Below are positions 33,330 to 48,936 of a stretch of 49,131 nucleotides of DNA, one piece after another (the stretch's first letter is position 1; every line of letters begins with the position of its first letter). The notes beneath the pieces were generated by a model. The model had not been told where the DNA came from, searched no databases, and was given only the letters and a program-made list of their open reading frames with translations. The stretch covers positions 1 through 49,131 of the forward strand of contig JACRNJ010000068.1 in assembly GCA_016219285.1 (NCBI GenBank), written 5' to 3'. A program made the translations under genes and the position numbers. Source of the DNA: Deltaproteobacteria bacterium. GTDB taxonomy: Bacteria > Desulfobacterota > GWC2-55-46 > UBA9637.

Positions 33330-33420
33330 AGCAGGAAAAAAGAGGCAAGAGGTTAGAGACAAGAAGCAAGAAGTTAGAAGCAAGAAAGAAAAAACAAGAA
33401 AGAAAAAACAAGGGAGGAAA
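33330..33420. repeat. GAAGCAA-type heptamer array (purine arm)
   Basis: Units GAGGCAA, GAGGTTA, GAAGCAA and GAAGTTA, then GAAAAAACAA-like units, run up to the SD (GGGAGG) of the tetraheme cytochrome gene. Only the purine arm is present. Confidence 0.88.
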
Positions 33421-34554: not shown

Positions 34555-35025
34555 ATGCTAAAAGATTTTTTTAAAAGGATAGTTGTAGAGGTTATAAAGG
34601 AACTCATATCTCCAGAGCTCAATGCCATAAGGGAGGAGCTGAAAAAAGAGACCTCTGCCATAAGGGAGGAGCTGAAAAAAGAGACCTCTGCCATAAGGGA
34701 GGAGCTGAAAAAAGAGACCTCTGCCATAAGGGAGGAGCTAAAAAAAGAGACCTCTGCCATAAGGGAGGAGCTGAAAAAAGAGACCTCTGCTATAAGGGAG
34801 GAGCTGAAAAAAGAGACCTCTGCTATAAGGGAGGAGCTGAAAAAAGAGACTACTCTTATCAGAGCCGAGTTATCAGAAATGAAAGAGGATATAAGGCATC
34901 TGGACAGGAGGCTTGACGACCTTTATAAAGTGGTGGTAAGGCGGGAGGAGCATTACTCTCTTGAAGAAGATGTGAAAAGACTTCGGGACGACGTGGAGGT
35001 ATTGAAGAGGAGGGTTGGGGTATGA
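34555..35025 (+). CDS. Coiled-coil protein built on a 33-bp tandem repeat
   Basis: The 156-residue product starts at MLKDFFKRIVVEVIKELI. It then has seven tandem copies of AIREELKKET(S/T), an 11-residue (hendecad) unit, and a C-terminal coiled-coil part (LDRRLDDLYKVVVRREEHYS, EEDVKRLRDDVEVLKRRVGV). It has no signal peptide or membrane helix. The C-terminal part resembles many small DUF-type coiled-coil proteins. The repeats are nearly identical in DNA, so copy number probably varies between strains. Function unknown; heptamer arrays lie on both sides. Confidence 0.75.
   Translation: MLKDFFKRIVVEVIKELISPELNAIREELKKETSAIREELKKETSAIREELKKETSAIREELKKETSAIREELKKETSAIREELKKETSAIREELKKETTLIRAELSEMKEDIRHLDRRLDDLYKVVVRREEHYSLEEDVKRLRDDVEVLKRRVGV
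34624..34854 (+). repeat. Seven tandem 33-bp repeats within the coiled-coil gene
   Basis: The unit begins GCCATAAGGGAGGAGCTG and ends AAAGAGACCTCT. Copies differ by one or two bases (GCT for GCC in units 6 and 7; ACT at the end of unit 7). The near identity points to recent expansion. Confidence 0.97.
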
Positions 35026-36361: not shown

Positions 36362-36505
36362 AAATATCTAAATTCAAATTTCGAAATCCGAAACAAATTC
36401 AAAATTCAAATTTTCAAATGTTCAAAACATCTTGTTTTTTTGTCATTAGGATTTTGGTTATTTGATATTGTTTCGAATTTCGTGCTTCGGATTTCGAATT
36501 TATAA
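36362..36505. repeat. AAATCCG/CGGATTT heptamer palindrome, second copy
   Basis: Nearly the same order of units and centre as 35060-35260. It lies between leader B and the SD of the PPIC gene and is open in the frame of that gene. Confidence 0.92.
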
Positions 36506-36524
36506 ACTAAAGGAGGGTATAAAT

Positions 36525-37616
36525 TTGCTGATATTAAAAAGGGTTGCTATTTTTACCGTTGGTTTGCTGTTTTTAATCACAGCCGCCGCCAATGGCGCAG
36601 GTGAAAAAGATGTAAAGACAAAACCCGGCCCAAAAGCTGCAGAGGTTTTAGAAGAGGCTCCAAAGATTGTGCTGCGGGTAAATGCGGTTGAATTGGATGA
36701 ACTAGACCTTGAAGGCATGATAAAAACGCTTTTGCCGGGGGCAAGCGTCCACCAAAGACTTACTCAAGAAAAACAGAAGGCAATCAGGGTAAAAGCCGTG
36801 GACAGGCTTATTATAAGAGAGCTTTTTATTCAAGAGGCAAGGAGCCAGGGTATAAAAATTAAACCGCAGGAAATAGACAAACAGGTTGCGGAGATAAAGA
36901 AAAATTATAAGGGTAAGGGGTCTCTGGAAACCTTTTTAAAAAAGAATAAGCTCACCATGGATGGTCTTAGAAAAGAACTTGAAAAAGGGCTGCTCCTCCA
37001 AAGATATGAAACAAAGGTTAATGATGAAATAAAAAAGGATGCCAAGAAAAAGATTACCGATGCCTATATAGAGGAATATTACAACAAGAATAAGGAAAGA
37101 TTCAAGGAGCCTGAACGTATCCGTTTGAGAGAGATAACCATTAAGGCCGACCCGGGAGGAGGCAAGGAGGTATGGCAGGAGGCCTTCAATACAGCGAAAC
37201 AGCTTCGCGACAGGATTGATAAGGGAGAGGATTTTGCAAAGGTTGCCAAGGAATCTTCTCAAGACCCATATGCGGTTAAGGGCGGTGATATGGGGTTTGG
37301 ACATGTTGGAAGCCACGTCCCGGAACTAGAAAATGCTGCGGCCAGATTAAAGGTCGGGGAGGTTTCTGGGCCCATATGGTCAATATATGGATACCATATC
37401 ATAAAATTAGAGGAAAAGGCCCCTCCAATACAGAGGACATTTGAAGAGGTCAAAGATGCAATCAGGGGCGATCGTGGGGAGGCCGAATTTATAGACATGA
37501 AATACAATTTTATCCAGGACCTTAAGAAAAAGGCAAAGATAGAGTATCTGATTCCAGAGGATAAAAAGGAAGCAGAGGATGCTGAAAAAAAGGCAAAGGA
37601 AAAGGGTAAGAAGTAA
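36525..37616 (+). CDS. PPIC-type (parvulin/SurA-like) peptidyl-prolyl isomerase, exported
   Basis: The 363-residue product has a signal peptide (AIFTVGLLFLITAAANGAG). A SurA-type helical domain (about 50-190) includes VKAVDRLIIRELFIQEA. The parvulin domain (about 195-310) has IRLREITIKADP, AKVAKESSQDPYAVKGGDMGFG and PIWSIYGYHIIKLEEK. The tail is Lys/Glu-rich. Start TTG at 36525 is chosen because AGGAGGG lies 7 nt before it and the upstream codons are repeat. It would fold exported cytochromes or the outer-membrane barrel; such isomerases sit beside nanowire cytochrome genes in Geobacter. Leader B may control it. Confidence 0.9.
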   Translation: MLILKRVAIFTVGLLFLITAAANGAGEKDVKTKPGPKAAEVLEEAPKIVLRVNAVELDELDLEGMIKTLLPGASVHQRLTQEKQKAIRVKAVDRLIIRELFIQEARSQGIKIKPQEIDKQVAEIKKNYKGKGSLETFLKKNKLTMDGLRKELEKGLLLQRYETKVNDEIKKDAKKKITDAYIEEYYNKNKERFKEPERIRLREITIKADPGGGKEVWQEAFNTAKQLRDRIDKGEDFAKVAKESSQDPYAVKGGDMGFGHVGSHVPELENAAARLKVGEVSGPIWSIYGYHIIKLEEKAPPIQRTFEEVKDAIRGDRGEAEFIDMKYNFIQDLKKKAKIEYLIPEDKKEAEDAEKKAKEKGKK

Positions 37617-37617
37617 G

Positions 37618-37700
37618 AGGCAAATGGAACATGCAACATGGAACATGAAACATAGAACTTCAAGTTTCAAGTTTCAAGCTTCATGCTTCAAGCTTCTCAC
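37618..37700. repeat. GAACATG/CTTCAAG heptamer palindrome inside the monoheme cytochrome gene
   Basis: GGAACAT, GCAACAT and GAAACAT units, then TTCAAGTTTCAAG and CTTCATG units, encode the first 25 residues of the cytochrome and so its signal-peptide region. Confidence 0.9.
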
Positions 37701-38079
37701 TTCCTGCCTCTTGCTTCTATTTTCAGTCTCCTGCGCGCAAGCCAAAGAAACAGCTGCGACTAAAAGAGGCGACCCGGAAAGAGGCAAGGCTATTTACGAG
37801 AAATACTGCTTCTATTGCCACGGCAGGACAGGCAAGGGTGACGGGGCGGTTTCTATAGCAATCTCTCCCCATCCGGCAGATTTTATCAGCGATAAGAAAC
37901 GGATGGCCAAGTCAGATGCGGAACTATTCAAATCTATATCAGAAGGCATTTACCGGGATACAGGGGGAGAGGAGATGGCCATGCCAAGATGGAAGGATAT
38001 CCTGACCGAACAGGAGCGGTGGGATGTTCTGATGTATATCAGGGAACTATCAAGAGGCAAGAGGCATGAGGCAAGATAA
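37624..38079 (+). CDS. Monoheme class I cytochrome c with repeat-encoded signal peptide
   Basis: The 151-residue product has one heme site, CFYCH, in ERGKAIYEKYCFYCHGRTGKGDG. The distal Met is probably that in EEMAMPRW, giving a class I cytochrome of about 90 residues. The N-terminus (MEHATWNMKHRTSSFKFQAS, then CFKLLTSCLLLLFSVSC) is encoded by a heptamer palindrome and a GCTTCTCAC-type stretch. It serves as the signal peptide, perhaps with a lipobox at FSVSC or cleavage after CAQA. The start at 37624 is a judgement. The last codons overlap the next gene. Confidence 0.87.
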   Translation: MEHATWNMKHRTSSFKFQASCFKLLTSCLLLLFSVSCAQAKETAATKRGDPERGKAIYEKYCFYCHGRTGKGDGAVSIAISPHPADFISDKKRMAKSDAELFKSISEGIYRDTGGEEMAMPRWKDILTEQERWDVLMYIRELSRGKRHEAR

Positions 38080-38240
38080 AAGAGGCAAGAGGCAGGAAGC
38101 AAGAGGCAAGAAGCAAGATGTAAGAAGCAAGATGAAAGAAAAAAGTTCTTCTTGCTTCTTGCTTCTAACTTCTAACTTCTGGCTTCTAACCTCTTGCATC
38201 TGGCATCTTGCCTCTTGCCTCTTGCTTCTTGCTAATCCAG
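38052..38240. repeat. GAAGCAA/CTTGCTT heptamer palindrome encoding a signal peptide
   Basis: The purine arm (GAGGCAA, GAAGCAA, GATGTAA) spans about 38052-38135 and the pyrimidine arm (TTGCTTC, TAACTTC, TCTTGCC) about 38150-38235. The arms are translated in frame as a basic n-region and a hydrophobic core. A further purine piece lies at 38416-38462 within the same gene. Confidence 0.93.
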
Positions 38241-39142
38241 CCTATGCCTCTCAGGACGACTACCACCCGCTAACCGGCGAGCCAAAGTGCATGGACTGCC
38301 ATACACCTGACAGAAAATATTCTATTGATTATACAAGGGAGCAAGGGTGTGAAGAATGTCATGGTCCTAATTTAAGTGAAAGATATGCCTCAATAGATAC
38401 GAGATATAAAGGTCAGATGCAAGAAGTCAGAAGCCAGAAGCAAGAAACAAAAAGCCGGAAGAAAGATACTGCAGAAGACATGGTTTTAGTGCCAGGAGGC
38501 GAGTTCACCATGGGTTCCAATGACTGGTGGCCAAAGAGCGGTCCGGAACATAAAGTAAACCTGCCTGCATTTTATATTGACAAATACGAAGTTACGAACA
38601 AAAGATTTAAGAAATTTGTTGACACCACAGGATATAGGCCGCCTGACCACTGGAATAATAATAAAATTCCTGATGCAAGAGAAGAACATCCTGTTGTTTA
38701 TGTAAGCTGGTTTGACGCCGAGGCCTTTTGCAGATGGGATGGCAAAAGACTTCCCACAGAGGCAGAATGGGAAAAAGCGGCAAGGGGCGCAGATAAGCGG
38801 GTATTCCCGTGGGGGGATAAGTTTAGCAGGGACAAGGCAAATACCCCGCAATATGGCAAAGAAGACACCATGCCTGTAGCAAGCTTTGAGTCTGGTAAAA
38901 GCCCTTACGGCGTCTATGACATGGCAGGAAATGTATGGGAGTGGACAGCAGACTGGTTTAAACCCTATCCAGGAAACACCCATGCTGATGAAAACTATGG
39001 AGAAAAATACATGTCACTCCGAGGCGGCTCATGGTATGACTGCACTTACTATAAATGCGGTATCAGCGCGCCAACATACAACCGCATATTCTTTAATCCG
39101 CAAACCCGCAATAACAATTTTGGTTTCAGATGCGCAAAGTAA
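38066..39142 (+). CDS. Diheme cytochrome fused to a formylglycine-enzyme-like (SUMF1) domain
   Basis: The 358-residue protein has a basic n-region and hydrophobic core encoded by a heptamer palindrome, with cleavage likely after NPAYA. Two heme sites (CMDCH and CEECH) follow. A repeat-encoded linker (QEVRSQKQETKSRKKD) leads to an FGE/EgtB/PvdO-type domain (about 135-358: MVLVPGGEFTMGSNDWW, RLPTEAEWEKAARGAD, YDMAGNVWEWTADW, NNFGFRCAK). Near the end, GGSWYDCTYYKCG carries a Cys-x4-Cys pair close to where FGE has its catalytic Cys pair. The start at 38066 has AAGAGG 8 nt upstream; Met at 38132 is an alternative. A redox or ligand-binding role is inferred. Confidence 0.88.
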   Translation: MRQDKRGKRQEARGKKQDVRSKMKEKSSSCFLLLTSNFWLLTSCIWHLASCLLLLANPAYASQDDYHPLTGEPKCMDCHTPDRKYSIDYTREQGCEECHGPNLSERYASIDTRYKGQMQEVRSQKQETKSRKKDTAEDMVLVPGGEFTMGSNDWWPKSGPEHKVNLPAFYIDKYEVTNKRFKKFVDTTGYRPPDHWNNNKIPDAREEHPVVYVSWFDAEAFCRWDGKRLPTEAEWEKAARGADKRVFPWGDKFSRDKANTPQYGKEDTMPVASFESGKSPYGVYDMAGNVWEWTADWFKPYPGNTHADENYGEKYMSLRGGSWYDCTYYKCGISAPTYNRIFFNPQTRNNNFGFRCAK

Positions 39143-39266
39143 ATAGAAGCAAGAGGCCAGAGGTAAGAGGCAAGAAGTTAGAAGTTAGAAACAAGATATA
39201 AGAGACCAGATACAAGAAGCCAGATGCAAGAAAACAGAAACAAGAAATAAGAAGCAAGAGGCAAAC
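39143..39266. repeat. GAAGCAA-type heptamer array, left of four-helix gene
   Basis: Units GAAGCAA, GAGGCCA, GAGGTAA, GAAGTTA, GATACAA and GAAACAA run to the GTG start of the next gene. The final AGAGG can serve as its SD, 8 nt before GTG. Confidence 0.92.
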
Positions 39267-39269
39267 CAG

Positions 39270-39632
39270 GTGATTAAAAGTTATAAAGACTTGAAGGTCT
39301 ATGGACTCTCCTATAAGTTGGCTATGGAAATTTTTGAACTATCAAAGAAATTCCCTAAAGAAGAACAATATGCCTTGACTACTCAAATAAGAAATTCATC
39401 CCGTTCTATTCCTGCCAATATTGCAGAAGGGTGGGCTAAAAGAAAATATATAAATGTATTTAAAAGACATATTATAGATGCTATTGGTTCTTGCGATGAA
39501 ACAAAGGTGTGGATAGACTTCGCTTTAGACTGCAAGTATATTTCTGAAGAGAAGCACAGGATAGTAACAGATGACTGTAACGAAATCGGGAGGATGTTAA
39601 ATGGCTTATACGAAAACTGGAAGAGTTTTTAA
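39270..39632 (+). CDS. Four-helix-bundle protein (23S rRNA IVP / S23 family), intact
   Basis: The 120-residue protein has the family signature: YKDLKVYGLSYKLAMEIFELS, FPKEEQYALTTQIRNSSRSI, PANIAEGWAKRK, then two more helices ending EIGRMLNGLYENW. The start is GTG at 39270. It has no signal peptide. Relatives occur in 23S rRNA intervening sequences and as Avd of diversity-generating retroelements, where they bind RNA; free-standing copies have no known role. It is enclosed by a purine array on the left and a pyrimidine array on the right. Its last codons contain the SD and ATG of the following lipoprotein gene. Confidence 0.93.
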   Translation: MIKSYKDLKVYGLSYKLAMEIFELSKKFPKEEQYALTTQIRNSSRSIPANIAEGWAKRKYINVFKRHIIDAIGSCDETKVWIDFALDCKYISEEKHRIVTDDCNEIGRMLNGLYENWKSF

Positions 39633-40437
39633 TTTTGCTTCTTGCTTCTCGCCTCTTGCTTCTTGCCTCTTGCCTCTCGCCTCATGCCTCTTGCTTCTTG
39701 GCAGTTGCGCAAAGCCTCCTTCCGACATGGTTCAGGTTCCGGCAGGCGAATTTATCATGGGCAGCAACGAGGTTGACAGAGAGGCAAAGGCCCAACAGTA
39801 TGGCGATAGAAAACCGTGGTATTCTAATGAGAGGCCGGAGAGAAAGGTCAGGCTTGAGGCATTCTATATTGACAAACATGAGACGACCAACGTCCAATAT
39901 GCTGAATTTGTAAAAACAACCGGACATAGGCCTCCTGACTACTGGCCGGGCGGCATATATGCATCAGATACTGCAAATATTCCGGTAGTGATGGTTAACT
40001 GGCATGATGCAGACACATACTGTAAATGGAAAGGCAAGAGGCTTCCAACAGAGGCAGAATGGGAAAAGGCGGCAAGGGGCGCAGACGGCAGAAGATTTCC
40101 ATGGGGAAATGAGTTTGATATTAAAAAGGTTAATACACTCGGCGGATACGGCGGCCCAATGGCTGTAGGGACATTTGAACATGGCAAGAGCCCATACGGG
40201 GCATATGATATGGCAGGCAATGCGCAGGAGTGGATTGAAGACTGGTATAAGGCTTACCCTGATAATGATTTTAATGATAAAGACTATGGAGAAAAATTTA
40301 AGGTGGTCAGAGGTGGCGGATGGGGCGGCATGGGACATTACAGCCTTCAGGTCTATGTAAGGACTGCTTATAGAAACATTGCCCCGCCTGACGGCAGATT
40401 TAATGATGTGGGTTTTAGATGCGCAAAGGGTAAGTGA
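39601..40437 (+). CDS. FGE-like (SUMF1 domain) lipoprotein
   Basis: The 278-residue protein is an exported FGE/PvdO-type domain (MVQVPAGEFIMGSNEVD, RLPTEAEWEKAARGADG, YDMAGNAQEWIEDW, FNDVGFRCAKG). Its signal peptide reads FNFASCFSPLASC, then LLPLASCLLLLGSC, ending in the lipobox LGSC before AKPPSD, so it should be lipidated. The core is encoded by a heptamer array. GGGAGG lies 7 nt before ATG, inside the four-helix gene, which it overlaps by 32 nt. The last segment (VVRGGGWGGMGHYSLQ) lacks the Cys pair of true FGEs, so formylglycine chemistry is unlikely. It is a paralogue of the domain upstream. Confidence 0.88.
   Translation: MAYTKTGRVFNFASCFSPLASCLLPLASCLLLLGSCAKPPSDMVQVPAGEFIMGSNEVDREAKAQQYGDRKPWYSNERPERKVRLEAFYIDKHETTNVQYAEFVKTTGHRPPDYWPGGIYASDTANIPVVMVNWHDADTYCKWKGKRLPTEAEWEKAARGADGRRFPWGNEFDIKKVNTLGGYGGPMAVGTFEHGKSPYGAYDMAGNAQEWIEDWYKAYPDNDFNDKDYGEKFKVVRGGGWGGMGHYSLQVYVRTAYRNIAPPDGRFNDVGFRCAKGK
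39632..39715. repeat. CTTGCTT-type heptamer array, right of four-helix gene
   Basis: TTGCTTC, TCGCCTC, TTGCCTC and TCATGCC units. It is the pyrimidine partner of 39143-39266, separated from it by the four-helix gene, and encodes the h-region and lipobox of the FGE-like lipoprotein. Confidence 0.92.
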
Positions 40438-42674
40438 TGCCGCATGTGGGATGCCAGATGCAAATGGAACATGAAACATGGAACATGAAACATGGAACTT
40501 CAAGCTTCATGCCTCATGCTTCAAGCTTCAAGCTTCAAGCTTCAAGCTTCATGCCTCTTGTTTCTTGCCGCAGTAGATATATATATATTATAATTATGTT
40601 TGCTGCCATGTTCATGCCTGCAATGGCAAATGGTTTTGAGATAGACCCATATTCATTGAATAGATTAAGCATGAATGTAGATTTTAGTTATGAAAATTAT
40701 AAATATGACTCAAAAGATAACAAACGGGAATACTCAACCTTCCGCCAACGTTATAACTTTGAGGCAAAGGGTAAAATAATAGACCGCAGGCTGTTAATAT
40801 ATGATGCAGGCATTGAATTTGATGAAACAACAGATGAGAAAACACCAGGCGGAACATCCGGCATAAACATCAGCAAATATATGTTAAGAACAACCCTCTT
40901 GCCTAAATCAAGCATACCATTAACCCTTTATGCGAATAGAAACGTCTATGACACAACATACTCAAATAAAGCGACAACAGACACTTATGGCCTTGACTGG
41001 ATGCTCTGGTTCATAACCTTTCCAACTACCCATTTAACGTTGGAACAGCAATCCACACAGAGCCCGGGTCAGGATGAGGCGGCGCTATCCTACAGCATTG
41101 ATTTGAGCAAGAACATCGAACCAACCAGCAACAAGATTGGCTATAGCGCCGGAGATACAAGGGATAGCATAAGGAAGTCGGGCTCGGAATATTACATGGT
41201 AACCTTTAACAATAACACAGAACTTATTATGAATACCTATTTTCATCTGGGATTGGCAGAAGGCGAGACAAGGTCGTTTAGCAAAAACAATACCGCAGAC
41301 TATTATTCCTATGCCGGCAGTGTTGGAGTAAAGACAAGAGATACCAAGATATTCAGCCAGCAATATAACTATACATTTTTTGAATCAAACCAAAAGACAG
41401 CTAATGAACGACTGTTAACAGACAATGAATTTTTTTCAGGAAATGTTACTTTCAATCCTGCCGACGGCCTGAGCGCATTTGCAAAGATGCAGTCAAATAA
41501 GTATAATAGCACAAAAAGCCCAACATCAGAAAGCACGGTCATTTCAGCAGGCGCATCATATAAACACGATATAAATACTGAATGGTCCACCATAGAATCG
41601 GTTGATTACAGCAGCAGCGCATCAACATCCGGCGACCCTGTAACAGGGAAAAGGGAAAGAACTGCTGCTGCCGCAAAATCAGAGCTGAAATATTTAAAAC
41701 TGCTAACATGGGCGGATTCCTTTTCCGCCGGTGGTTCGCTCGGTTATTTTACAGAACGGGCAGAACCGGCGCAAGGTATAGATGGTCTGTCTCACGGCCT
41801 TAATACAGCCCTGTCCGGGATAAATCTGAAATACGCCCGTCTTTCCAGCGGCTATACCTATTCAGGCGTTGCAAGCTCTGACGGCTCAAGCGTTAAGGAT
41901 CAGACATTTTATACGACTGCGCATAATTCTTATTTTACATACCTTCCTGCCATGGTTTCTTATAATTACCATGAATTGGATAGTTACATAAATAGTGAAG
42001 ATGCAAAAGAGGAGGCGGTTACAGCAGAGGCAAAGCTGCTTTATTTTAATTATCTCCCCGTTGAGGCATCTTATAAACATTATACCATAGTCAGGTCATC
42101 CGGTCCTCCGCCAGAGCAGAAATTTGCCTATATAAGAGATAAACAAGAAAATAACTTTAGCGCGAAGGCAAGCCTCACTTACTTCAGAAATACAGCTATT
42201 ACCGCATATGCCACATATAACGATTATATACAGTCTGTAGAAGAACAAACGGCGAAACGAAACGAAATCAACAATGAATGGAAAACCGGCATAGATGGCA
42301 GCCATAAAAGGATTTTTCTGGCCGGCATGCTTGGCCTTTCAGCCGGTTATGCCAGCTCCTTATCTGAAAACAGAGGAATGGGCAATGATATTATTCGTGG
42401 TACCATTAATATTTATTACAAGGGATCCTATGACAAAAAGCTTGGCAGAAACATGGTCTGGAAACTGAAACTGGAGCGGAATAATACAGCAATAAACGGC
42501 TTGGCTGATGTTGTGGATTCTATGGAAACATCTCTCCTTTACAGACTAAGGGCGTGGTTTATATCTGCGGAATATCTCCTTACAAAAGCCGCCATTAACA
42601 GCACTGCCAATAGAGATTATACCGAGGACAAGTGGATGCTGAGGGTATCCCGCAGCTTTGTGAAGATATTCTGA
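40437..42674 (+). CDS. Outer-membrane beta-barrel protein, about 745 residues
   Basis: After an N-terminal region encoded by a heptamer palindrome and a hydrophobic stretch (IYIIIMFAAMFMPAMANG), the protein shows alternating amphipathic strands with many Tyr, Ser, Thr and Asn and no long helices. It ends in RVSRSFVKIF, a typical C-terminal Phe signal for BAM insertion. No CxxC or heme site is present. About 20-26 strands would fit the size. It may be the pore of a porin-cytochrome conduit (MtrB-like in role, not in sequence) or an export pore. ATG at 40437 overlaps the previous stop (TGATG). Met at 40551 is an alternative. Confidence 0.8.
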   Translation: MPHVGCQMQMEHETWNMKHGTSSFMPHASSFKLQASSFMPLVSCRSRYIYIIIMFAAMFMPAMANGFEIDPYSLNRLSMNVDFSYENYKYDSKDNKREYSTFRQRYNFEAKGKIIDRRLLIYDAGIEFDETTDEKTPGGTSGINISKYMLRTTLLPKSSIPLTLYANRNVYDTTYSNKATTDTYGLDWMLWFITFPTTHLTLEQQSTQSPGQDEAALSYSIDLSKNIEPTSNKIGYSAGDTRDSIRKSGSEYYMVTFNNNTELIMNTYFHLGLAEGETRSFSKNNTADYYSYAGSVGVKTRDTKIFSQQYNYTFFESNQKTANERLLTDNEFFSGNVTFNPADGLSAFAKMQSNKYNSTKSPTSESTVISAGASYKHDINTEWSTIESVDYSSSASTSGDPVTGKRERTAAAAKSELKYLKLLTWADSFSAGGSLGYFTERAEPAQGIDGLSHGLNTALSGINLKYARLSSGYTYSGVASSDGSSVKDQTFYTTAHNSYFTYLPAMVSYNYHELDSYINSEDAKEEAVTAEAKLLYFNYLPVEASYKHYTIVRSSGPPPEQKFAYIRDKQENNFSAKASLTYFRNTAITAYATYNDYIQSVEEQTAKRNEINNEWKTGIDGSHKRIFLAGMLGLSAGYASSLSENRGMGNDIIRGTINIYYKGSYDKKLGRNMVWKLKLERNNTAINGLADVVDSMETSLLYRLRAWFISAEYLLTKAAINSTANRDYTEDKWMLRVSRSFVKIF
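40455..40565. repeat. GAACATG/CTTCAAG heptamer palindrome at the start of the barrel gene
   Basis: GGAACAT and GAAACAT units lead to CTTCATG, CCTCATG and CTTCAAG units. They are translated as MKHGTSSFMPHASSFKLQAS in the predicted frame, ahead of the hydrophobic signal stretch. Confidence 0.92.
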
Positions 42675-42692
42675 GACAATACAAGAGGCAAG

Positions 42693-42871
42693 TTCTAAAT
42701 CCTAATATCTAATTTCTAATAAAATATCCAATGACTAAATTTCCAATGTTTTCCCCCTTAATAAAGGGGGGGCAGGGGGGTTGTTTTTTTTGACATTAGA
42801 CATTTCATCCTTGACAGATATTCTTCCTGTCAAGGATTTATTAGACATTAGGATTTAGAAATTAGAAATTT
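42693..42871. repeat. Composite heptamer palindrome, copy 2
   Basis: Same order as copy 1 at 7557-7751: TCTAAAT-type arm, CCCCCTTAATAAAGGGGG with a T8 run, the CCTTGACAG...CTGTCAAGG hairpin (42809-42835), then an ATTAGGATTTAG-type arm. The copies are over 30 kb apart and very similar, so this is a dispersed mobile unit. Confidence 0.9.
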
Positions 42872-42888
42872 ATTATAGGGAGGCTCCG

Positions 42889-43479
42889 GTGCATATCGGA
42901 TTCGTTGAGCTTGGTTTTAAGTTTCGGTTCATGCTGATTTTCTGTTTAATTACGTTTACGGCGGTTTTTATAGCAAGCGCACTGTTTTATTTCCTTACCT
43001 ACAGAGAATTAAGCAATAATTATGGAGAGGCCTTTTTTACCATACAGTCGGTCAAAAACATGGTTTTCCCTCTCCTCTTTGCATCCATACAATCCATTCT
43101 TCTGCTTGGTCTGGCATCTCTGGCCATTGCCGCCCTGTCTCTTTTCTTTTCCCATAAGATAGCAGGCCCTATATACCGCTTTGAAAAAAGCATGGAGGCT
43201 ATAGGCTCAGGGGATTTGACGCATATTGTCAGGCTGCGGACGGGCGACCAGATTGTTGGGCTTGTTGAATCAATCAATAAATCAACCCGCGCAATGAACC
43301 ACAGGGTAAGAATCGTGCAGGAAAGCCTCTTGCGGATTAAAACCATAGAGGAGGATTTTAAGACGCTGCTGGACAAGGGATATTCTGAAGGGGAGATAAG
43401 AACTATTATTGACGGGCTTAAGAGCGAGACTGGCAAGTTAAAAGATATTTTACAAACAATTACGGTGGAAGGACAATAG
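42889..43479 (+). CDS. Two-helix HAMP-domain membrane protein without an output domain
   Basis: The 196-residue protein has two membrane helices (about 14-38 and 62-88). A HAMP domain follows (HKIAGPIYRFEKSMEAIGSGDLTHIVRLR), then a helical coiled-coil tail to the end. There is no kinase, methyl-accepting or cyclase domain. The GTG start has GGGAGG 5 nt upstream. Its stop overlaps the start of the heptaheme cytochrome gene, so the two are translated together. It may assist or sense the state of the membrane cytochrome; that is inferred from coupling. Confidence 0.85.
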   Translation: MHIGFVELGFKFRFMLIFCLITFTAVFIASALFYFLTYRELSNNYGEAFFTIQSVKNMVFPLLFASIQSILLLGLASLAIAALSLFFSHKIAGPIYRFEKSMEAIGSGDLTHIVRLRTGDQIVGLVESINKSTRAMNHRVRIVQESLLRIKTIEEDFKTLLDKGYSEGEIRTIIDGLKSETGKLKDILQTITVEGQ

Positions 43480-44288
43480 TGAAAACCCGCTTAATTGCCA
43501 TAATTCTGACTGCGGTGATTCTTGGGACAGGTTATTATATCTGGTCGCAGTGGAGCAGCTATCATAATTTAAATGGCCAATGCATGATGTGCCACTTAAC
43601 TGAGCCAACTAAAAAACAGGAAGGATTATTATTTACCAAGGACATCAGCTTTCTCTGCCTCAATTGTCATAAAGACGCTGTTAGGACATCTCATCCTGTA
43701 GGTATGAAGCCCACTATGGAAATACCGGAAGGTTTCTTATTGGACAAAAAAGGAAAGATTGCCTGCAACACCTGTCATACTACCCATAATGACGGCTATG
43801 GCAAATATAGACTTAGGATTGCAACCATCGGAGAACCTTTCTGCAGAAGATGTCATCTTATGCTGGAAGACGGCTCTGCGCTCCATAGGGGGGCAATTGG
43901 GTCCGCTCATATGGGCAGCAGCGTATCAGCTGTATATCTACCGGGAGGCACAGGAGGCTATCTTGACGACCTCTCCATAAAATGTCTGATGTGCCATGAT
44001 GCCAGCCTTGGCAAGGATGCCATTGTAGCAAAGGTCAAGGCAGGGTGGGAATATGACCATGGCGCTGCTGTTGGGTTAAGCCACCCTATTGGAGTTTCCT
44101 ATATAGAAACCTCAAGAAAGTATCCTGGCGCATATAAAAAGGTTGGACAATTGCAACCCGAGATAAGATTATTCAACGGCCTGGTGGGTTGTGGAACCTG
44201 CCATAATCCATACAGCAAGCAGGGGCATTTTGAATTAGTTATGAGCAATGAAGGCAGCGCCCTCTGCTTTGCGTGCCATAATAAATAA
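43479..44288 (+). CDS. Membrane-anchored heptaheme cytochrome c
   Basis: The 269-residue protein has an uncleaved N-terminal helix (LIAIILTAVILGTGYYIW) and seven CxxCH sites: CMMCH, CLNCH, CNTCH, CRRCH, CLMCH, CGTCH and CFACH. Segments such as NEGSALCFACHNK at the end and VGCGTCHNPYS resemble doubled-CxxCH/OmcE-type repeats. The NapC-like anchor suggests electron entry from the quinone pool to periplasmic carriers. GTG overlaps the preceding stop and GAAGGA is the SD. All heme sites are canonical. Confidence 0.92.
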   Translation: MKTRLIAIILTAVILGTGYYIWSQWSSYHNLNGQCMMCHLTEPTKKQEGLLFTKDISFLCLNCHKDAVRTSHPVGMKPTMEIPEGFLLDKKGKIACNTCHTTHNDGYGKYRLRIATIGEPFCRRCHLMLEDGSALHRGAIGSAHMGSSVSAVYLPGGTGGYLDDLSIKCLMCHDASLGKDAIVAKVKAGWEYDHGAAVGLSHPIGVSYIETSRKYPGAYKKVGQLQPEIRLFNGLVGCGTCHNPYSKQGHFELVMSNEGSALCFACHNK

Positions 44289-44292
44289 AATA

Positions 44293-44335
44293 ATAGAAGT
44301 TAGAAGCAAGAAGTTAGAGGTAAGAAAAAACAAAA
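44293..44335. repeat. GAAGTTA/GAAGCAA heptamer array (purine arm)
   Basis: Units GAAGTTA, GAAGCAA, GAAGTTA and GAGGTAA precede the SD (AAAGGAG) of the next gene. No pyrimidine arm follows. Confidence 0.85.
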
Positions 44336-44347
44336 GGAGAGTGCAAA

Positions 44348-44890
44348 ATGCCAAACAAAAATGTGAGATGCGGCGAGAAAACCGCTAAAATTGTATTTAT
44401 TATAGCAATAGCTTTCATATTTTCAGGGATTGTTTCCTGTGAAGGGAAAAAGGACAGCGCTCAAAAGGAGGCCTCTGTAACAACAGCATCCCAAGATAAA
44501 TTGATTGCGCAGGCCAAAGAGCATTTTGACAAAGGGACTCAACTCTCTTTAAAAGGTCAATATGACGAGGCAATCTCAGCCTACAATGAATCCCTGAGAC
44601 TTAACCCGCAATCTGCAGAGGCCCACAGCAACCTGGGGTTTGCCTATTTTGATAAAGGCAACATTGAGCAGGCAATCGCTGAACAGCAAAAGGCATTAGC
44701 TGTTAATCCAAAGCTTGCTCATGCATTCTACGGATTAGCGCTGGCTTATGAAAAAAAGGGAAATAAACAAGAGGCTATAAAAAATCTGGAAGAGTTTATG
44801 AAGCATACAGAGCCGCACAGTCTATGGTGGAATAAGGCCGGAGAGAAGCTGATTATTCTAAAGGGAGAAGGGGAAAAGGGTAAAATATAG
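44348..44890 (+). CDS. Small TPR lipoprotein
   Basis: The 180-residue protein has a signal peptide ending IVSCEGKK, a possible lipobox. A short Lys/Ser-rich stretch leads to about three TPR units (AISAYNESLRLNPQSAEAHSNLG, FAYFDKGNIEQAIAEQQKAL, LALAYEKKGNKQEAIKNLEEF). Unlike the other TPR proteins here it lacks the TMTC-type linker. It follows the heptaheme gene in the same direction and is likely periplasmic. AAAGGAG precedes the ATG. Confidence 0.88.
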   Translation: MPNKNVRCGEKTAKIVFIIAIAFIFSGIVSCEGKKDSAQKEASVTTASQDKLIAQAKEHFDKGTQLSLKGQYDEAISAYNESLRLNPQSAEAHSNLGFAYFDKGNIEQAIAEQQKALAVNPKLAHAFYGLALAYEKKGNKQEAIKNLEEFMKHTEPHSLWWNKAGEKLIILKGEGEKGKI

Positions 44891-44987
44891 CCGCCTTGAC
44901 AGAAAATGGCAATGCATCTTATGAGTCAATAGGTTGCCTGCTCTAAAAATGCAGGTGTATTTTCGGTTCTTCCGGCTTTTGTGTGGG

Positions 44988-45030
44988 TTCCCTCCCCTTC
45001 AAGGGGAGGGTCAGGGTGGGGATGGGGTAA
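44988..45030. repeat. GGGGAGGG palindrome, left of DUF559 gene
   Basis: CCCTCCCCTTCAAGGGGAGGG followed by TCAGGGTGGGGATGGGG. The repeat at 45402-45446 is the same type in inverted orientation. Confidence 0.85.
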
Positions 45031-45041
45031 AGAGGTTTGTT

Positions 45042-45455
45042 ATGATCGGTCAGACAAACAAAACGATTCTTAAAAACAAACTTCAACGTAATCTTCGAAG
45101 GAACATGACCGATGCCGAGCACCCGCTCTGGCAGGCTCTGCGCAACAAACAAATGGCAGGGCTTAAGTTCCGACGGCAACACCCATTTGGGGACTTTATC
45201 CTGGATTTTGTGTGTCTTAAAAAAAGGCTGGTGGTTGAGTTAGACGGCGGCCAACATTCAGAAAACGAGGCTTCGGACAAAGTGCGCACCGAGAAACTTG
45301 TAAATGCAGGTTTTCGCGTCCTCCGGTTTTGGAATCATGAAGTTCTCGGTCAGATTGAAGCGGTTAAGGAGAAAATTTGGCTGGAATTGCAGAAAGGATG
45401 CGCACCCCACCCTCACCTTAATCCTCTCCCTGAGGGAGAGGAAGACCTAAGTTGA
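45042..45455 (+). CDS. DUF559 endonuclease-like protein
   Basis: The 137-residue protein belongs to DUF559, which has a restriction-endonuclease-like (Vsr-type) fold. LRRNMTDAEHPLWQALRNKQMAGLKFRRQHPFGDFILDFVC is shown in parts, and the active-site-like stretch is VVELDGGQH followed by FRVLRFWNHEVL. Start ATG at 45042 has AGAGG 6 nt upstream. The last residues (PHPHLNPLPEGEE) are encoded by a GGGAGAGG palindrome. The gene is bracketed by inverted copies of one palindrome family, which suggests a link between the enzyme and the repeat. Such proteins are common and untested. Confidence 0.92.
   Translation: MIGQTNKTILKNKLQRNLRRNMTDAEHPLWQALRNKQMAGLKFRRQHPFGDFILDFVCLKKRLVVELDGGQHSENEASDKVRTEKLVNAGFRVLRFWNHEVLGQIEAVKEKIWLELQKGCAPHPHLNPLPEGEEDLS
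45402..45446. repeat. GGGAGAGG palindrome, right of DUF559 gene
   Basis: CACCCCACCCTCACCTTAAT followed by CCTCTCCCTGAGGGAGAGG. It encodes the DUF559 C-terminus and is inverted relative to 44988-45030. Confidence 0.85.
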
Positions 45456-45550
45456 AGAGTTAGATTTAGATTATAAAGAGAGCGCCGGCTTACCCACAGG
45501 AAAGCCGGAAAAACCGTATTTTCTTGGTTTATGGGACTATTTCTATTCTT

Positions 45551-46375
45551 ATGGATAAATCTGTTTCTACTGCAATATATTGCTGGCTATTTATTATTGC
45601 AGCCTTTTCCTATGCCGCACACAATAGAAATATGAGCTGGCAAAATGATGTCGCCATATGGAGGGATGTGGTAAAAAAATCGTCTGACAAGGCCAGGGGT
45701 CATAATAATCTTGGCACCGCGCTTGAAAGTGGAATGATGGATGAGGCAATTAAGGAGTATAAGATTGCAATAGGGTTGAAGCCTGATTTTTCTGAGGCGC
45801 ACAATAATCTCGGAAAGGCCTATTATGAACAGGGTGGGCGGCTGGATGAAATAATCAAGGAATATAAGGACGCATTGAGGTTGAACCCGGCCTTCCCAGA
45901 GGCCCACAGCAACTTAGGAAATGCATATTACGCGCAGGGAAGGATTGCGGATGCGCTTGGCGAGTATAAAACGGCGTTAAAACTGAACCCCAACTTCGCA
46001 GGGGCATATATAAACATGGGCGTCGCATACAAGGATATGGGGCAACTCAATGAAGCCGTCCAGGAATACAAAAAGGCATTGAGGCTGAGGCCTGACCTTG
46101 CGCTGGTTTATCACAGTTTTGGCAATGTTTATTATCTACAGGGACATTTACATGAGGCAATAGAGCAGTATAAAACCGCATTGAAGATAAACCCCAATAT
46201 GACGGCTGCTTACAATAATCTGGGGGTTGCATACGAGGCGCTGGGGCAGATGGATAATGCCGTTCAGCAATACAACAAGGCATTGGAATTTAAACCCGAT
46301 TATTCGGATGCACGCAAGAATCTGGACAGTCTCTCTCAAAAGATGGGGGCAGCGGAAGATGCTAGAGGCAAATAA
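45551..46375 (+). CDS. TPR protein with one membrane helix, TMTC-C-terminus type
   Basis: The 274-residue product has one hydrophobic helix (AIYCWLFIIAAFSYAA). The family linker (NRNMSWQNDVAIWRDVVKKS) follows, then about six TPR units (AYYEQGGRLDEIIKEYKDALRLNP, AYINMGVAYKDMGQLNEAVQEYKKAL). It is the third free-standing relative of the TMTC tail in this window. The ATG at 45551 has no SD; TTG at 45524 is an alternative. A GC-rich hairpin (CCGGCTT...AAAGCCGG) lies at 45488-45510 in the leader. It is likely a periplasmic scaffold. Confidence 0.82.
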   Translation: MDKSVSTAIYCWLFIIAAFSYAAHNRNMSWQNDVAIWRDVVKKSSDKARGHNNLGTALESGMMDEAIKEYKIAIGLKPDFSEAHNNLGKAYYEQGGRLDEIIKEYKDALRLNPAFPEAHSNLGNAYYAQGRIADALGEYKTALKLNPNFAGAYINMGVAYKDMGQLNEAVQEYKKALRLRPDLALVYHSFGNVYYLQGHLHEAIEQYKTALKINPNMTAAYNNLGVAYEALGQMDNAVQQYNKALEFKPDYSDARKNLDSLSQKMGAAEDARGK

Positions 46376-46398
46376 AATAAGAGGCAAGAGGAGGATGT

Positions 46399-46992
46399 AT
46401 GAAGGAAAAAGCCGCTTTTAGAAGACGAAATTATTTTATCAAAAAAGGCCTGCAATCCAGATTTATTTTTGGTTTTTCTCTGTCAGTTGTTGCCGGCTTT
46501 TTAATAAATTGGTTTTTGGTATATTATCTGGTTGACAAAGGGCTGGCAGAAGCGTTATATAGGAGCCATATTAAGATTGGGGCGACAGGCGAGGTAATTG
46601 GAGATATCCTTGTCAAGGTAAATCTTGTTGCAGCGCCTCTTCTGATTATTTCCGTCATTATAGTAGGATTATTCATCGTCAATAAGGTGACAATCTCGTT
46701 AGCAGGCTTGAAAAAGGCAGTGGAAGGATTTGAAAAAGGAGATATGACGTCAAGGGGTTTAAAGGATATCCCTGATGAACTATTATCATCCTATAGCGCC
46801 ATGGTAAACCGTTTCGGCAAGGCTTTCGTTTCTTTTAAAATGCAGACAGATGAGTTGGAAAAAAAGGTAACAGAGGCAAAACATATTACACAAGAAAGAG
46901 CCCTCTCTCCGCAGGAAGCAAAAGATATCTATATAGCCCTTTCAAATGGTAGAAAGGCGATGGAGCAGGAATTCTCCATGTTTAAGGTATAG
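46399..46992 (+). CDS. Two-helix HAMP-like membrane protein, second copy
   Basis: The 197-residue protein has two membrane helices (about 23-45 and 76-98). A HAMP-like segment follows (TISLAGLKKAVEGFEKGDMTSRGLKDIPDELLSS), then a coiled-coil tail. The layout matches 42889-43479 but sequence identity is low. It has no output domain. AGAGGAGG lies 5 nt before ATG, partly supplied by a heptamer unit. It precedes the PQQ-type propeller gene and may serve a redox complex as its paralogue may serve the heptaheme protein. Confidence 0.8.
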   Translation: MKEKAAFRRRNYFIKKGLQSRFIFGFSLSVVAGFLINWFLVYYLVDKGLAEALYRSHIKIGATGEVIGDILVKVNLVAAPLLIISVIIVGLFIVNKVTISLAGLKKAVEGFEKGDMTSRGLKDIPDELLSSYSAMVNRFGKAFVSFKMQTDELEKKVTEAKHITQERALSPQEAKDIYIALSNGRKAMEQEFSMFKV

Positions 46993-47009
46993 GTTGAAGG
47001 TATTGCAAG

Positions 47010-48272
47010 ATGCGAGAAATTAGAAGCAAGAAGATTAGAAGCAAGAGGCAAGAGACAATGAAAAAAGACAGAAGCAAGAAGTTAGAGGCAAGAAGCAAGA
47101 AGGACTTTTCTCTTTCATCTTGCCTCCTGCCTCTTGCCTCTGGCTTCTTATCTCTTGTTTCCTTCATCTCGCCTCTTGCCTCTTGCATCTTATTTATACT
47201 TACTCTGCTGCCTGCTGTATCAAGCGCTGCTGATTGGCCGATGTTTATGAAGGACCCAACCCACTCTGCCGCTTCCGGAGAAAATCTATCCTTGCCATTA
47301 AATCTCAAATGGCAGTTTAAGACTGGCGGGCCTCTCTATTCGTCCCCTGCTGTTTCCGGTGGAAATGTTTTTATGGGCTCATATGATAACCACCTTTATG
47401 CCCTTGATGCCAAAACAGGGACGCTGCTATGGAGGTATAAAAGTGGAGAGCAAATACTCTCCACCCCGGCTATTGCCGACAACATCGTATATTTTGGCTC
47501 TAAAGACGGCTGGATATATGCCCTGAACGTAAAGGATGGCAAATTGCTATGGAAATATGAGACAGGTGGCAAGGTCATGACATCTGCTGTTGTTGCAGAC
47601 GGGGCAGTTTACATTGCATCAAATGACCTTTATATCTATGCCATTGAAGCCAAGGATGGGAAACTCCGTTGGAGAAGCAAGCTGACAGATTATAAATACA
47701 GCGGAATATACTCATCACCGTCATATTGGGATGGTGTTGTATATACCGCAGGAAAGAATGGCGTTATCTATGCCCTTGATGCTAAAAACGGCGCCAAGAT
47801 GTGGAGTTATTACTTGGTAGAATCAGCCATATATTCTTCACCGGTTATAAGAGATAGCGTGGTATATATTGCAACTTACAGCCGCCTCCTCCTTGCCCTT
47901 GATGCCAAAAAAGGGACGGTAATCTGGAGTGCTGCTTTGAGCGACTGGCCATATTCCTCTCCTATTGCAACAAAAGATGCTGTTTATATCGGCCTTAAAG
48001 ACGGCACAATAAAATATTTTGACATAAAGGATGGAAACTTTAAAAAGGAGTATAAATTTCAAGGCGAGGTTAATTCTACCATGGCAGTATCCTCAAATGG
48101 CATTGCCGTTGTTGGCTGCGAAGACGGCGTGCTCTATGCAGTGAAACTGGAAAATGGGGAATTCCTCTGGAAATACATGACTGTCGGAGGCATACAATCT
48201 TCGCCGGCTATATCAGGCGGGATGGTCTTTGTTGGGTCAAAAGATGGAACTATATATGCATTTGGACAATAA
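47010..48272 (+). CDS. PQQ-type beta-propeller protein with repeat-encoded signal peptide
   Basis: The 420-residue protein has about seven propeller blades with the motif LYALDAKTGTLLWRYKSG and SPAVSGGNVFMGSYD. These are PQQ-repeat/BamB-like. No quinoprotein active-site residues are evident, so a scaffold role is likelier than a dehydrogenase. The N-terminus is encoded by a heptamer palindrome: a basic RSKK-rich n-region, then SSCLLPLASGFLSLVSFISPLASC and a final LLPAVSSA cleavage site before ADWP. Met at 47058 is an alternative start, with AGAGG upstream. It precedes a tetraheme cytochrome gene by 13 nt. Confidence 0.88.
   Translation: MREIRSKKIRSKRQETMKKDRSKKLEARSKKDFSLSSCLLPLASGFLSLVSFISPLASCILFILTLLPAVSSAADWPMFMKDPTHSAASGENLSLPLNLKWQFKTGGPLYSSPAVSGGNVFMGSYDNHLYALDAKTGTLLWRYKSGEQILSTPAIADNIVYFGSKDGWIYALNVKDGKLLWKYETGGKVMTSAVVADGAVYIASNDLYIYAIEAKDGKLRWRSKLTDYKYSGIYSSPSYWDGVVYTAGKNGVIYALDAKNGAKMWSYYLVESAIYSSPVIRDSVVYIATYSRLLLALDAKKGTVIWSAALSDWPYSSPIATKDAVYIGLKDGTIKYFDIKDGNFKKEYKFQGEVNSTMAVSSNGIAVVGCEDGVLYAVKLENGEFLWKYMTVGGIQSSPAISGGMVFVGSKDGTIYAFGQ
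47014..47190. repeat. GAAGCAA/CTTGCCT heptamer palindrome encoding a signal peptide
   Basis: The purine arm (GAAGCAA, GAAGATTA, GAGGCAA, GAAGTTA) spans about 47014-47105. The pyrimidine arm (TCTTGCC, TCTTGCC, TCTGGCT, TCTCGCC) spans about 47118-47190. Both arms are translated in frame. Confidence 0.93.
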
Positions 48273-48274
48273 AT

Positions 48275-48430
48275 TAAGAGGCAAGATGCCAGAAGCAAGA
48301 AGCCAGAGGTCAAAAGCCAGAAGCCAGAAGCCAGAAGTTAGAAGCCAGAAAAACTTTTCTCTTACATCTTGCTTCTTGCATCTAACTTCTATTTTCTTGC
48401 TTCTGACTTCTTGCCTCTTGCTTCTTGAGC
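48275..48430. repeat. GAAGCCA/CTTGCTT heptamer palindrome encoding a signal peptide
   Basis: GAAGCAA, GAAGCCA, GAGGTCA and GAAGTTA units (48275-48350) are followed by TCTTGCT, TCTTGCA, TCTAACT and TCTGACT units. AAGAGG plus ATG at its start form the initiation site of the next gene. Confidence 0.93.
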
Positions 48431-48936
48431 CTGCTTCCTTTGCACAGGAGGCTCGCCTAAAGGAAAGTGTCCCAACAGGTTTTAATCCGCATGACCAGAT
48501 TGATGATGAGGGCGAGATTCTATGGAACAAATGTCTTATATGCCATCCGGAAATACCCAATATAAAAGAGGCCAAATCTATCCTTGATGTAAAACTCAGG
48601 TTTGAAGAAGATGTAAAACAGGGATGTTTCAGATGTCATCCTGAAGTGATGCATCCGGGAGGCGGGTGGATTGGCGCTACTTTGAAAGGCATAGCAGGGG
48701 CGCCTGACCATTGGATAAAGCCTCCTGAGTATATTGTAAAGAACATGGAAAAATCTCTGAAAGAGGCTGATGTAATCATGCCTCTTGAGCCTAAGACCGG
48801 CAAAATATTTTGCGCCACATGCCATAACCCGCATGAGAGAGGCCTGCTTATAGGCAAGGCAGACAAGGGAGCTGACTACGAGTGGAGACTGCGGTCAGCA
48901 GGCGCGCCAATATGCCAGTATTGCCATAGGAGATAG
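48286..48936 (+). CDS. Tetraheme cytochrome c with repeat-encoded signal peptide
   Basis: The 216-residue protein has four CxxCH sites: CLICH, CFRCH, CATCH and CQYCH. The spacing is irregular, and free His are available in HDQ, MHPGG and HERG as distal ligands. The signal peptide has a basic n-region (PEARSQRSKARSQKPEVRSQ) and a core reading LTSCFLHLTSIFLLLTSCLLLL, with cleavage likely after PASFA. Both parts come from a heptamer palindrome. The start at 48286 is chosen for AAGAGG just upstream. It likely takes electrons from the propeller-associated complex or the heptaheme protein. Confidence 0.9.
   Translation: MPEARSQRSKARSQKPEVRSQKNFSLTSCFLHLTSIFLLLTSCLLLLEPASFAQEARLKESVPTGFNPHDQIDDEGEILWNKCLICHPEIPNIKEAKSILDVKLRFEEDVKQGCFRCHPEVMHPGGGWIGATLKGIAGAPDHWIKPPEYIVKNMEKSLKEADVIMPLEPKTGKIFCATCHNPHERGLLIGKADKGADYEWRLRSAGAPICQYCHRR

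Follow-up and report, generated by a model that had tools for sequence, protein, structure and literature searches.

Heptanucleotide repeat arrays probably rebuild predicted signal peptides in an order of Deltaproteobacteria-like bacteria

Cyanobacterial genomes carry dispersed heptanucleotide repeats, the short tandemly repeated repetitive (STRR) sequences, and several other repeats that border or enter coding DNA have been described. Rickettsia palindromic elements (RPE) are short dispersed palindromic repeats lying in existing open reading frames (ORFs) with the frame kept, in families of 100-150 bp (PMC3767692). Other systems include CTCTT pentamer repeats in the leader-peptide-coding region of an envelope protein in Neisseria opa (PMC5354566), and tandem repeats of Borgs that evolve rapidly and enter ORFs, with unit lengths there divisible by three, commonly disordered regions as products and signal peptides in 16.7% of repeat proteins versus 4.0% (PMC9879509). 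Two heptamers have also been described: TAACTGA, dispersed in marine Beggiatoaceae and often just upstream of starts (PMC4679880), and the GGGACCG element of Geobacter metallireducens, found between and within genes (PMC2700814). Coding palindromes have also been reported in mitochondria of Nematomorpha. Here we analyze a 49,131-nt stretch of a Deltaproteobacteria bacterium (the window; contig JACRNJ010000068.1 of assembly GCA_016219285.1, positions 1 to 49,131, forward strand), in which six genes begin with arrays of degenerate 7-nt repeats.

A sequence-only reading of the window had described these arrays as palindromes that encode the N-termini of exported proteins, and had interpreted them as portable secretion signals. 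The observation is confirmed, and the interpretation is partly supported. We consider it likely that the arrays are coding-tolerant, invading 7-nt repeats, comparable to RPE, that have repeatedly rebuilt predicted signal peptides. Their stop-free units can be translated in any reading frame, the arrays are read in frame, they are enriched in genes with export signals, and they are swapped between close relatives.

The source genome (G000) is assembled in 84 contigs totaling 2.28 Mb. Arrays were detected by a lag-7 match scan and by Tandem Repeats Finder (TRF), and protein families were assigned by Pfam. The first sample covered 382,200 bp of this genome, consisting of the window and 17 stretches on six contigs known for matches to the AGAAG pattern. 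The lag scan of this sample returned 114 lag-7 arrays, with 2, 1, 5, 12, 1, 4, 0, 3 and 2 arrays at lags of 4, 5, 6, 8, 9, 10, 11, 12 and 13, respectively; 57 were seen at lag 14, a multiple of 7, and shuffled sequence gave no lag-7 array in the same scan. TRF also detects the arrays, and its period-7 rows at the six window sites have 67-91% matches, the exception being a 35-nt stretch at 40464 with 100% matches at period 14. Some arrays form palindromes of about 100-150 bp or larger, while many are shorter and consist of a single arm. The units belong to many unrelated families, including AGAAGCA/AGAGGCA/AGAAGTC, GGAACAT/CTTCAAG, TTTACGA/TTACGAA, TACTGCT and CAAATCC, which have only the period in common. 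The idea of one repeat family thus does not hold, since signal peptides are built from several unrelated heptamers.

Because a 7-nt unit exceeds two codons by one nucleotide, a given unit yields the same heptapeptide whichever frame is read. As the sequence-only reading had noticed, all three frames of AGAAGCA yield RSKKQEA, and those of its complement yield CFLLLAS; AGAGGCA gives RGKRQEA and its complement CLLPLAS, TACTGCT gives YCLLLTA, and AGAAGTC gives RSQKSEV, with a complement that meets TGA in all frames. When the units are stop-free, a purine-then-pyrimidine palindrome therefore encodes a basic segment and then a hydrophobic segment. This remainder of one provides a simple rule for a harmless non-triplet repeat in coding DNA, and the rule predicts which units are permitted, namely those that are stop-free in the sense orientation.

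In the window, six ATG starts (37624, 38066, 39601, 40437, 47010 and 48286) open frames that run through arrays into long proteins, although the degree to which the array covers the hydrophobic core varies. The core is mostly array-encoded in four of the six and partly so in 37624, and in 40437 it lies mostly downstream, where a conserved hydrophobic stretch follows just 3' of the array. The products belong to cytochrome c (37624), SUMF1/FGE-like (38066 and 39601), PQQ/BamB-like (47010) and paired-CXXCH cytochrome (48286) families by Pfam, and the product of 40437 (~745 aa), which was outside the family search, is read as a beta-barrel. The first arm supplies a basic n-region and the second arm a hydrophobic core, followed by a small-residue or lipobox-like c-region, in the array-read N-termini under our home-made rule, in line with what had been proposed for the two arms.

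This rule is a script that scores hydrophobic core, charge and cleavage or lipobox motif on genes from a simple caller, and an N-terminal array gene was defined as one with at least 30 nt of array inside its N-terminal reading frame. In the first sample, 16 of 18 such genes were signal-peptide- or lipobox-like versus 62 of 314 others (Fisher p 2.4e-9). A second sample of 291,686 bp, made of 20 contigs of the source genome picked by number and having zero AGAAG matches, probes the other heptamers, and gave 5 of 8 versus 50 of 283 (p 7e-3). Pooled, the counts are 21/26 versus 112/597 (Fisher p 5e-11), so that the predicted enrichment at the 5' ends of export-type genes was found, as judged by the home-made rule. 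Among arrays near starts, those that are translated divide into 21 exported and 5 other genes, and those lying only upstream into 16 and 52 (p 6e-7). The same contrast was seen in two relatives, in stretches mostly selected for known homologues or arrays: 14:4 for translated versus 3:35 for upstream-only arrays in G004 (exported:other, p 2.7e-7), and 11:4 versus 4:15 in G007 (p 0.005). Since the export rule sees the array itself, the Pfam identity of the mature part matters. Mature domains among the translated-array positives include LptA (LptD_N), Omp85/POTRA, OEP, FlgA chaperone, multicopper oxidase (MCO), PilW, two GNA1162-like lipoproteins and cytochromes, to which a census of AGAAG-type arrays adds LolA, M23+LysM, PilP and another cytochrome; four scanned positives had no Pfam match. 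Families such as LptA, Omp85, OEP, LolA and PilP are exported or envelope proteins. On our reading, the array peptides would be made, would work as Sec or lipoprotein signals and would be cleaved, with predicted cleavage sites following AYA in 38066 and SSA in 47010, for example.

Another way to read these genes is to place the arrays in the 5' untranslated region, as elements with a regulatory or structural role, with true starts downstream and frames that are open by accident. Arrays lie only upstream in 68 genes, the array of 38066 forms a very stable RNA hairpin, and several genes without export features have open frames into the array and likely start later. However, none of the 21 export-type genes, LptA, Omp85/POTRA and OEP included, passes the signal-peptide rule from starts within 120 nt after the array, and a hydrophobic stretch is kept after the array in two of them (PilW-like and ATP synthase b). 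Lengths speak against accidental frames as well. Lengths of N-termini are uninformative on divisibility by three as starts were picked in frame, and only DNA comparisons between fixed anchors were kept: the array of 39601 is longer in G004 by 63 nt (9 units, 21 codons, in frame), and that of 48286 is 33 nt longer than its counterparts in G004 and G007, both differences being divisible by three. Two other array comparisons gave differences that are not divisible by three, with anchors that include sequence before the start. Overall, we regard untranslated elements as a quite improbable explanation.

Several points weigh against arrays as translated export signals. The export rule reads the array itself in the translated group, so the enrichment is partly circular, and since an open frame was the condition for picking N-terminal arrays, that they are open carries no weight. 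One of the 14 positives in G004 has a FabD-like start and is probably false, and the positives also include a few membrane or prepilin proteins (ATP synthase b, and PilW, in which the array forms the basic leader only). The transcript of 38066 has a fold of -110.7 kcal/mol with the start region inside a stem, which should hinder translation, and stable predicted hairpins (-110.7 and -61.2 kcal/mol) suggest a translational cost at some sites. Seven of the 21 N-terminal AGAAG-type arrays, with peptides read by eye, belong to genes that do not look exported. Lastly, AGAAG-rich stretches elsewhere in the phylum held no translated array in G086 (120 kb) and one in G303 (100 kb). The effect was thus not seen in these two array-rich genomes, and it may be restricted to the source order.

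Arrays were also compared between relatives. The sequence-only reading had named identical signal peptides in array-free homologues as a result that would count against it; in the seven protein families compared, such homologues do carry a signal peptide in the corresponding position, and its sequence is different. We read 12 of 20 LolA, 7 of 18 MCO and 10 of 20 GNA1162-like loci. The MCO genes of G000 and G004 are identical over 43 of 43 nt ending with the start codon, identical in the first 119 of 119 mature residues and 95% identical over the whole match, whereas the signal peptides between them align with 10 of 27 identities and 25 gapped positions, being built from TTACGA/TACTGCT in G000 and from AGAAGTC-type units in G004. 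The MCO of G009 and G010, from another family of the order, is of the TTACGA type as in G000, so this type seems old and that of G004 new. The PQQ protein has a 73-aa signal peptide mostly from the array in G000 and an ordinary one of 18 aa in G004, with 102 identities in the first 120 mature residues. Relatives of the SUMF1-like 38066 protein in the class have ordinary signal peptides, and the array is missing from the G007 orthologue. The GNA1162-like lipoprotein is array-built in G000 and G004, whereas G001, G003 and G007 have lipoprotein signals of the ordinary kind with 25 residues. Each of the seven LolA members read from the source's taxonomic family (G000, G001 and G003-G007) has a lag-7 array overlapping its N-terminus, with similar sequences in G001 and G004 and different ones in the other members, and ordinary signal peptides are found in G008 and G009, which belong to another family of the order, as well as in G014-G016 (other families). 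At the start of the 40437 gene, G004 has an AGAAGCA-type array instead, and the array of the 37624 gene has the same layout and length in G007. Turnover is not universal: TolC-like N-termini of G000 keep 37-49 identities in 54-57 aligned positions with G001-G004.

These swaps also bear on the strongest form of the original proposal, in which noncoding palindromes alone make non-secreted genes secreted by bringing a ribosome-binding site, a start and a signal peptide. The start codon lies within the detected array in three of the six window genes (37624, 38066 and 48286), each with a GAGG motif upstream, at 3, 8 or 4 nt before the start. Nevertheless, an ordinary signal peptide is found in array-free relatives for all seven families, the MCO swap left the sequence up to the start unchanged, and intergenic arrays are not intrinsically signal-like. 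A ready-made ribosome-binding site is therefore not the rule, and the creation of secretion de novo is very unlikely given that array-free relatives already have export signals. For the same reason, we favor invading repeats that replace or enlarge existing signal peptides.

Two further observations were made on these N-termini. The signal peptides of G004 TolC and G007 multicopper oxidase have a common insert, (F)TPDRINRGQIS, which is apparently another repeat nested in heptamer-type sequence. In addition, the array-free signal peptides MKLIFTCICCLL (PQQ, G004) and MKLICTLFICCL (SUMF1-like, G007) have nearly the same initial DNA in unrelated proteins, as compared with window positions 47204-47240, and their likeness could possibly reflect a second, non-heptamer portable start.

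Arrays are by no means confined to signal peptides. All 43 loci of the source genome matching AGAAGNNAGAAGNNAGARG were sorted into 21 N-terminal, 18 gene-body and 4 intergenic arrays, which rules out purely intergenic repeats, and 14 of the 21 N-terminal arrays have export-type peptides as read by eye. The gene-body arrays are in frame and in the purine-sense orientation in 18 of 18 cases. Their genes (14 scanned with Pfam) include ribonucleotide reductase, MurG-like glycosyltransferase, chorismate synthase, RibD, methionine-synthase-like, DnaG, CbiC (with the array in the linker to CbiX), CbiD, P-type ATPase, aminotransferase and others. CarB contains two arrays, and its alignment to 1bxr is gapped at both; relatives have other inserts or none at these sites, and among the 10 genomes resolved at site 2, 7 have an insert there. 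In CarB of the source genome (C57:28878-32315) and its relatives, the in-frame inserts comprise RSQKSEV heptamers, CCC..GGG-type repeats read as PPSPPFTKGGQGG and PYALCPM-like heptamers, and the two sites appear to be hot spots at which several kinds of unrelated repeats insert.

The occurrence of the same arrays within CarB and DnaG is relevant to a further alternative, phase variation, in which exported proteins would be turned on or off by the frameshift that comes with gaining or losing one 7-nt unit. A 7-nt step is a frameshift, the repeats occupy the leader-coding part of envelope genes, and the opa repeats offer a precedent (PMC5354566). On the other hand, units with 67-91% matches in the period-7 rows should suppress slippage, and LptA, LolA and Omp85 are poor candidates for on/off switching. 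Contingency loci thus appear unlikely to us, and invading repeats tolerated in coding DNA remain our preferred reading.

The arrays between genes help to separate what is intrinsic from what is sorted. Under a lenient rule that counts small overlaps as genic, 32 of 108 arrays of all kinds in the first sample are intergenic. The 28 intergenic arrays with a length of 70 nt or more have 16 open frames, of which 3 (19%) are signal-peptide-like; the rate in shuffles is 16.5%, so the idea that any array is intrinsically signal-like was rejected. N-terminal arrays are signal-peptide-like in 18 of 31 cases, although these were picked for being open, and the purine-to-pyrimidine order is found in 13 of 18 N-terminal versus 5 of 28 intergenic arrays (p 5e-4). 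Thus, sites have been sorted and the arrays are not signals by nature, which together with the gene-body arrays leaves the notion of a dedicated secretion signal unsupported. Selection, rather than insertion preference, would do the sorting.

Within the order, every one of the 10 additional genomes that we examined contains the AGAAG pattern, with the caveat that the two matches in G001 are no higher than its reversed-pattern control (2). Of 48 additional genomes from the class, 2 have it. Among 297 genomes drawn from the phylum, one match or more was seen in 69, some of them matching the reversed control equally often, and more than 50 matches occur only in G000, G086, G170, G303 and G333. 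Because the source genome is a draft in 84 contigs and is rich in short repeats, an assembly or binning artefact was also considered. This is extremely improbable, as array layouts are common to orthologous sites in separately assembled genomes, and arrays differ from site to site while their frames stay open.

The following course of events would account for these observations. Dispersed repeats of strict 7-nt period, often palindromic (an arm, a short loop and a roughly complementary arm), may have multiplied in an order of Deltaproteobacteria-like groundwater bacteria. An array whose length is divisible by three and whose unit is stop-free would be tolerated in any frame on landing. Purine arms would give hydrophilic basic peptides such as RSKKQEA and RSQKSEV, acceptable in enzyme loops or as an n-region, and stop-free pyrimidine arms would give hydrophobic peptides such as CFLLLAS, CLLPLAS and YCLLLTA that could serve as an h-region. 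Arrays would then be retained between genes, at tolerant spots of housekeeping enzymes and often in signal-peptide codons, the last being a forgiving site, as a Sec signal makes only loose demands that a basic arm and a hydrophobic arm after it would satisfy. In exported proteins, arrays would replace or enlarge the old signal peptide, and another heptamer family could supplant them later. Copies may arise by slippage, fold-back synthesis or a mobilizing enzyme.

The arrays of the window and the associated ORF are listed in Table 1.

Table 1. Heptamer arrays and the associated open reading frame in the window
Feature	Position	Strand	Remark
Array, GGAACAT arm then CTTCAAG arm	37605..37707	+	In-frame N-terminus of Cytochrom_C protein, part of hydrophobic core
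Cytochrome c ORF	37579-38079	+	Start in the sequence-only reading 37624; in-frame ATG further upstream at 37579
Purine-to-pyrimidine heptamer palindrome	38048..38241	+	Nearly whole signal peptide of SUMF1/FGE-like 38066-39142
Second array, body of SUMF1/FGE-like gene 38066-39142	38410..38462	+	Translates as EVRSQKQETKSRKK
Pyrimidine array	39624..39707	+	Hydrophobic core of FGE-like 39601-40437; lipobox-like LLGSC at array end
GGAACAT/CTTCAAG array	40450..40571	+	N-terminal extension of protein 40437-42674
Purine-to-pyrimidine array	47010..47201	+	Most of signal peptide, PQQ/BamB-like 47010-48272; lag-7 47065-47201, TRF from 47015
Purine-to-pyrimidine array	48272..48429	+	Most of signal peptide, paired-CXXCH cytochrome 48286-48936
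Purine-only array between genes	39141..39266	+	Excluded from signal-peptide count
Purine-only AGAAG array	33339..33411	+	Ends 14 nt before gene 33426-34397, not in its frame
Short AGAAG array between genes	44295..44320	+	Included in AGAAG census

Other features of the surroundings are as follows. A small gene (39270-39632) lies between two arrays and runs at its 3' end into the beginning of the 39601 gene; we take it to resemble the four-helix-bundle proteins of 23S rRNA intervening sequences. Within the gene 34555-35025, a near-perfect 33-nt tandem repeat (34623-34850, 98% matches, 6.9 copies) is unrelated to the heptamers. AT-rich palindromic intergenic repeats (ATTTCTAAATCCTAAT...ATTAGGATTTAGAAAT) with a 7-nt flavor occur at 36371-36500, 42690-42880 and similar sites between many genes. 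When the cytochrome/SUMF1 cluster at 36508-48936 is compared with contig C97 of G007, three of its proteins show 85-91% identity between the two genomes, and the identity for TolC, GNA1162-like, LolA and MCO is 74-86%; horizontal exchange of the cytochrome/SUMF1 cluster is possible, the contrast being weak.

It is important to consider what these arrays mean for the evolution of protein export. Signal peptides tolerate a wide range of sequences, and the natural origin of new ones is rarely caught in the act. Here, near-identical proteins of sister genomes have independently assembled predicted signal peptides, whose raw material can be seen in the DNA. The chances are about even that signal peptides in this order, those of LolA, LptA and BamA included, turn over as exchangeable repeat cassettes in a continuing heptanucleotide process that draws on unrelated families, which would be a route of birth apart from point mutation, fusion and domain shuffling. 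For annotators, signal peptides and odd enzyme inserts in such genomes may be repeats. Among the matches listed from the open-licence literature, we found no description of repeat-built signal peptides, RSQKSEV strings had no match in open-licence papers, and the term signal peptide does not occur in the paper on TAACTGA (PMC4679880).

With respect to known systems, the arrays resemble RPE in their in-frame insertion inside conserved protein genes, as in 18 of the 43 AGAAG-type arrays and at the CarB gaps relative to 1bxr, a likeness by description. They differ from RPE in that many unrelated heptamers sharing only the period are involved, lengths are variable and signal peptides are a main site. 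To our knowledge, RPE have no 7-nt internal period. Like opa, the arrays place a repeat in the leader-coding region of envelope proteins; however, the opa pentamers act as an on/off switch, whereas the heptamers are degenerate, often palindromic and spread over many unrelated envelope proteins and other gene parts, and the units at the six window sites (67-91% by TRF) fall short of the near-perfect units of opa-type contingency loci. Unlike the Borg repeats, the arrays have a 7-nt unit and appear to make up the signal peptide themselves. As direct 7-nt repeats dispersed through the genome in the lag scan, the arrays resemble the heptamers among long simple sequence repeats (LSSR) and STRR, but TAACTGA, GGGACCG and STRR repeats are discussed as possible regulatory elements, and TAACTGA in its forward orientation has stops in all frames. 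We would therefore liken the arrays most closely to RPE, with the unusual consequence that signal peptides appear to be turned over by repeats.

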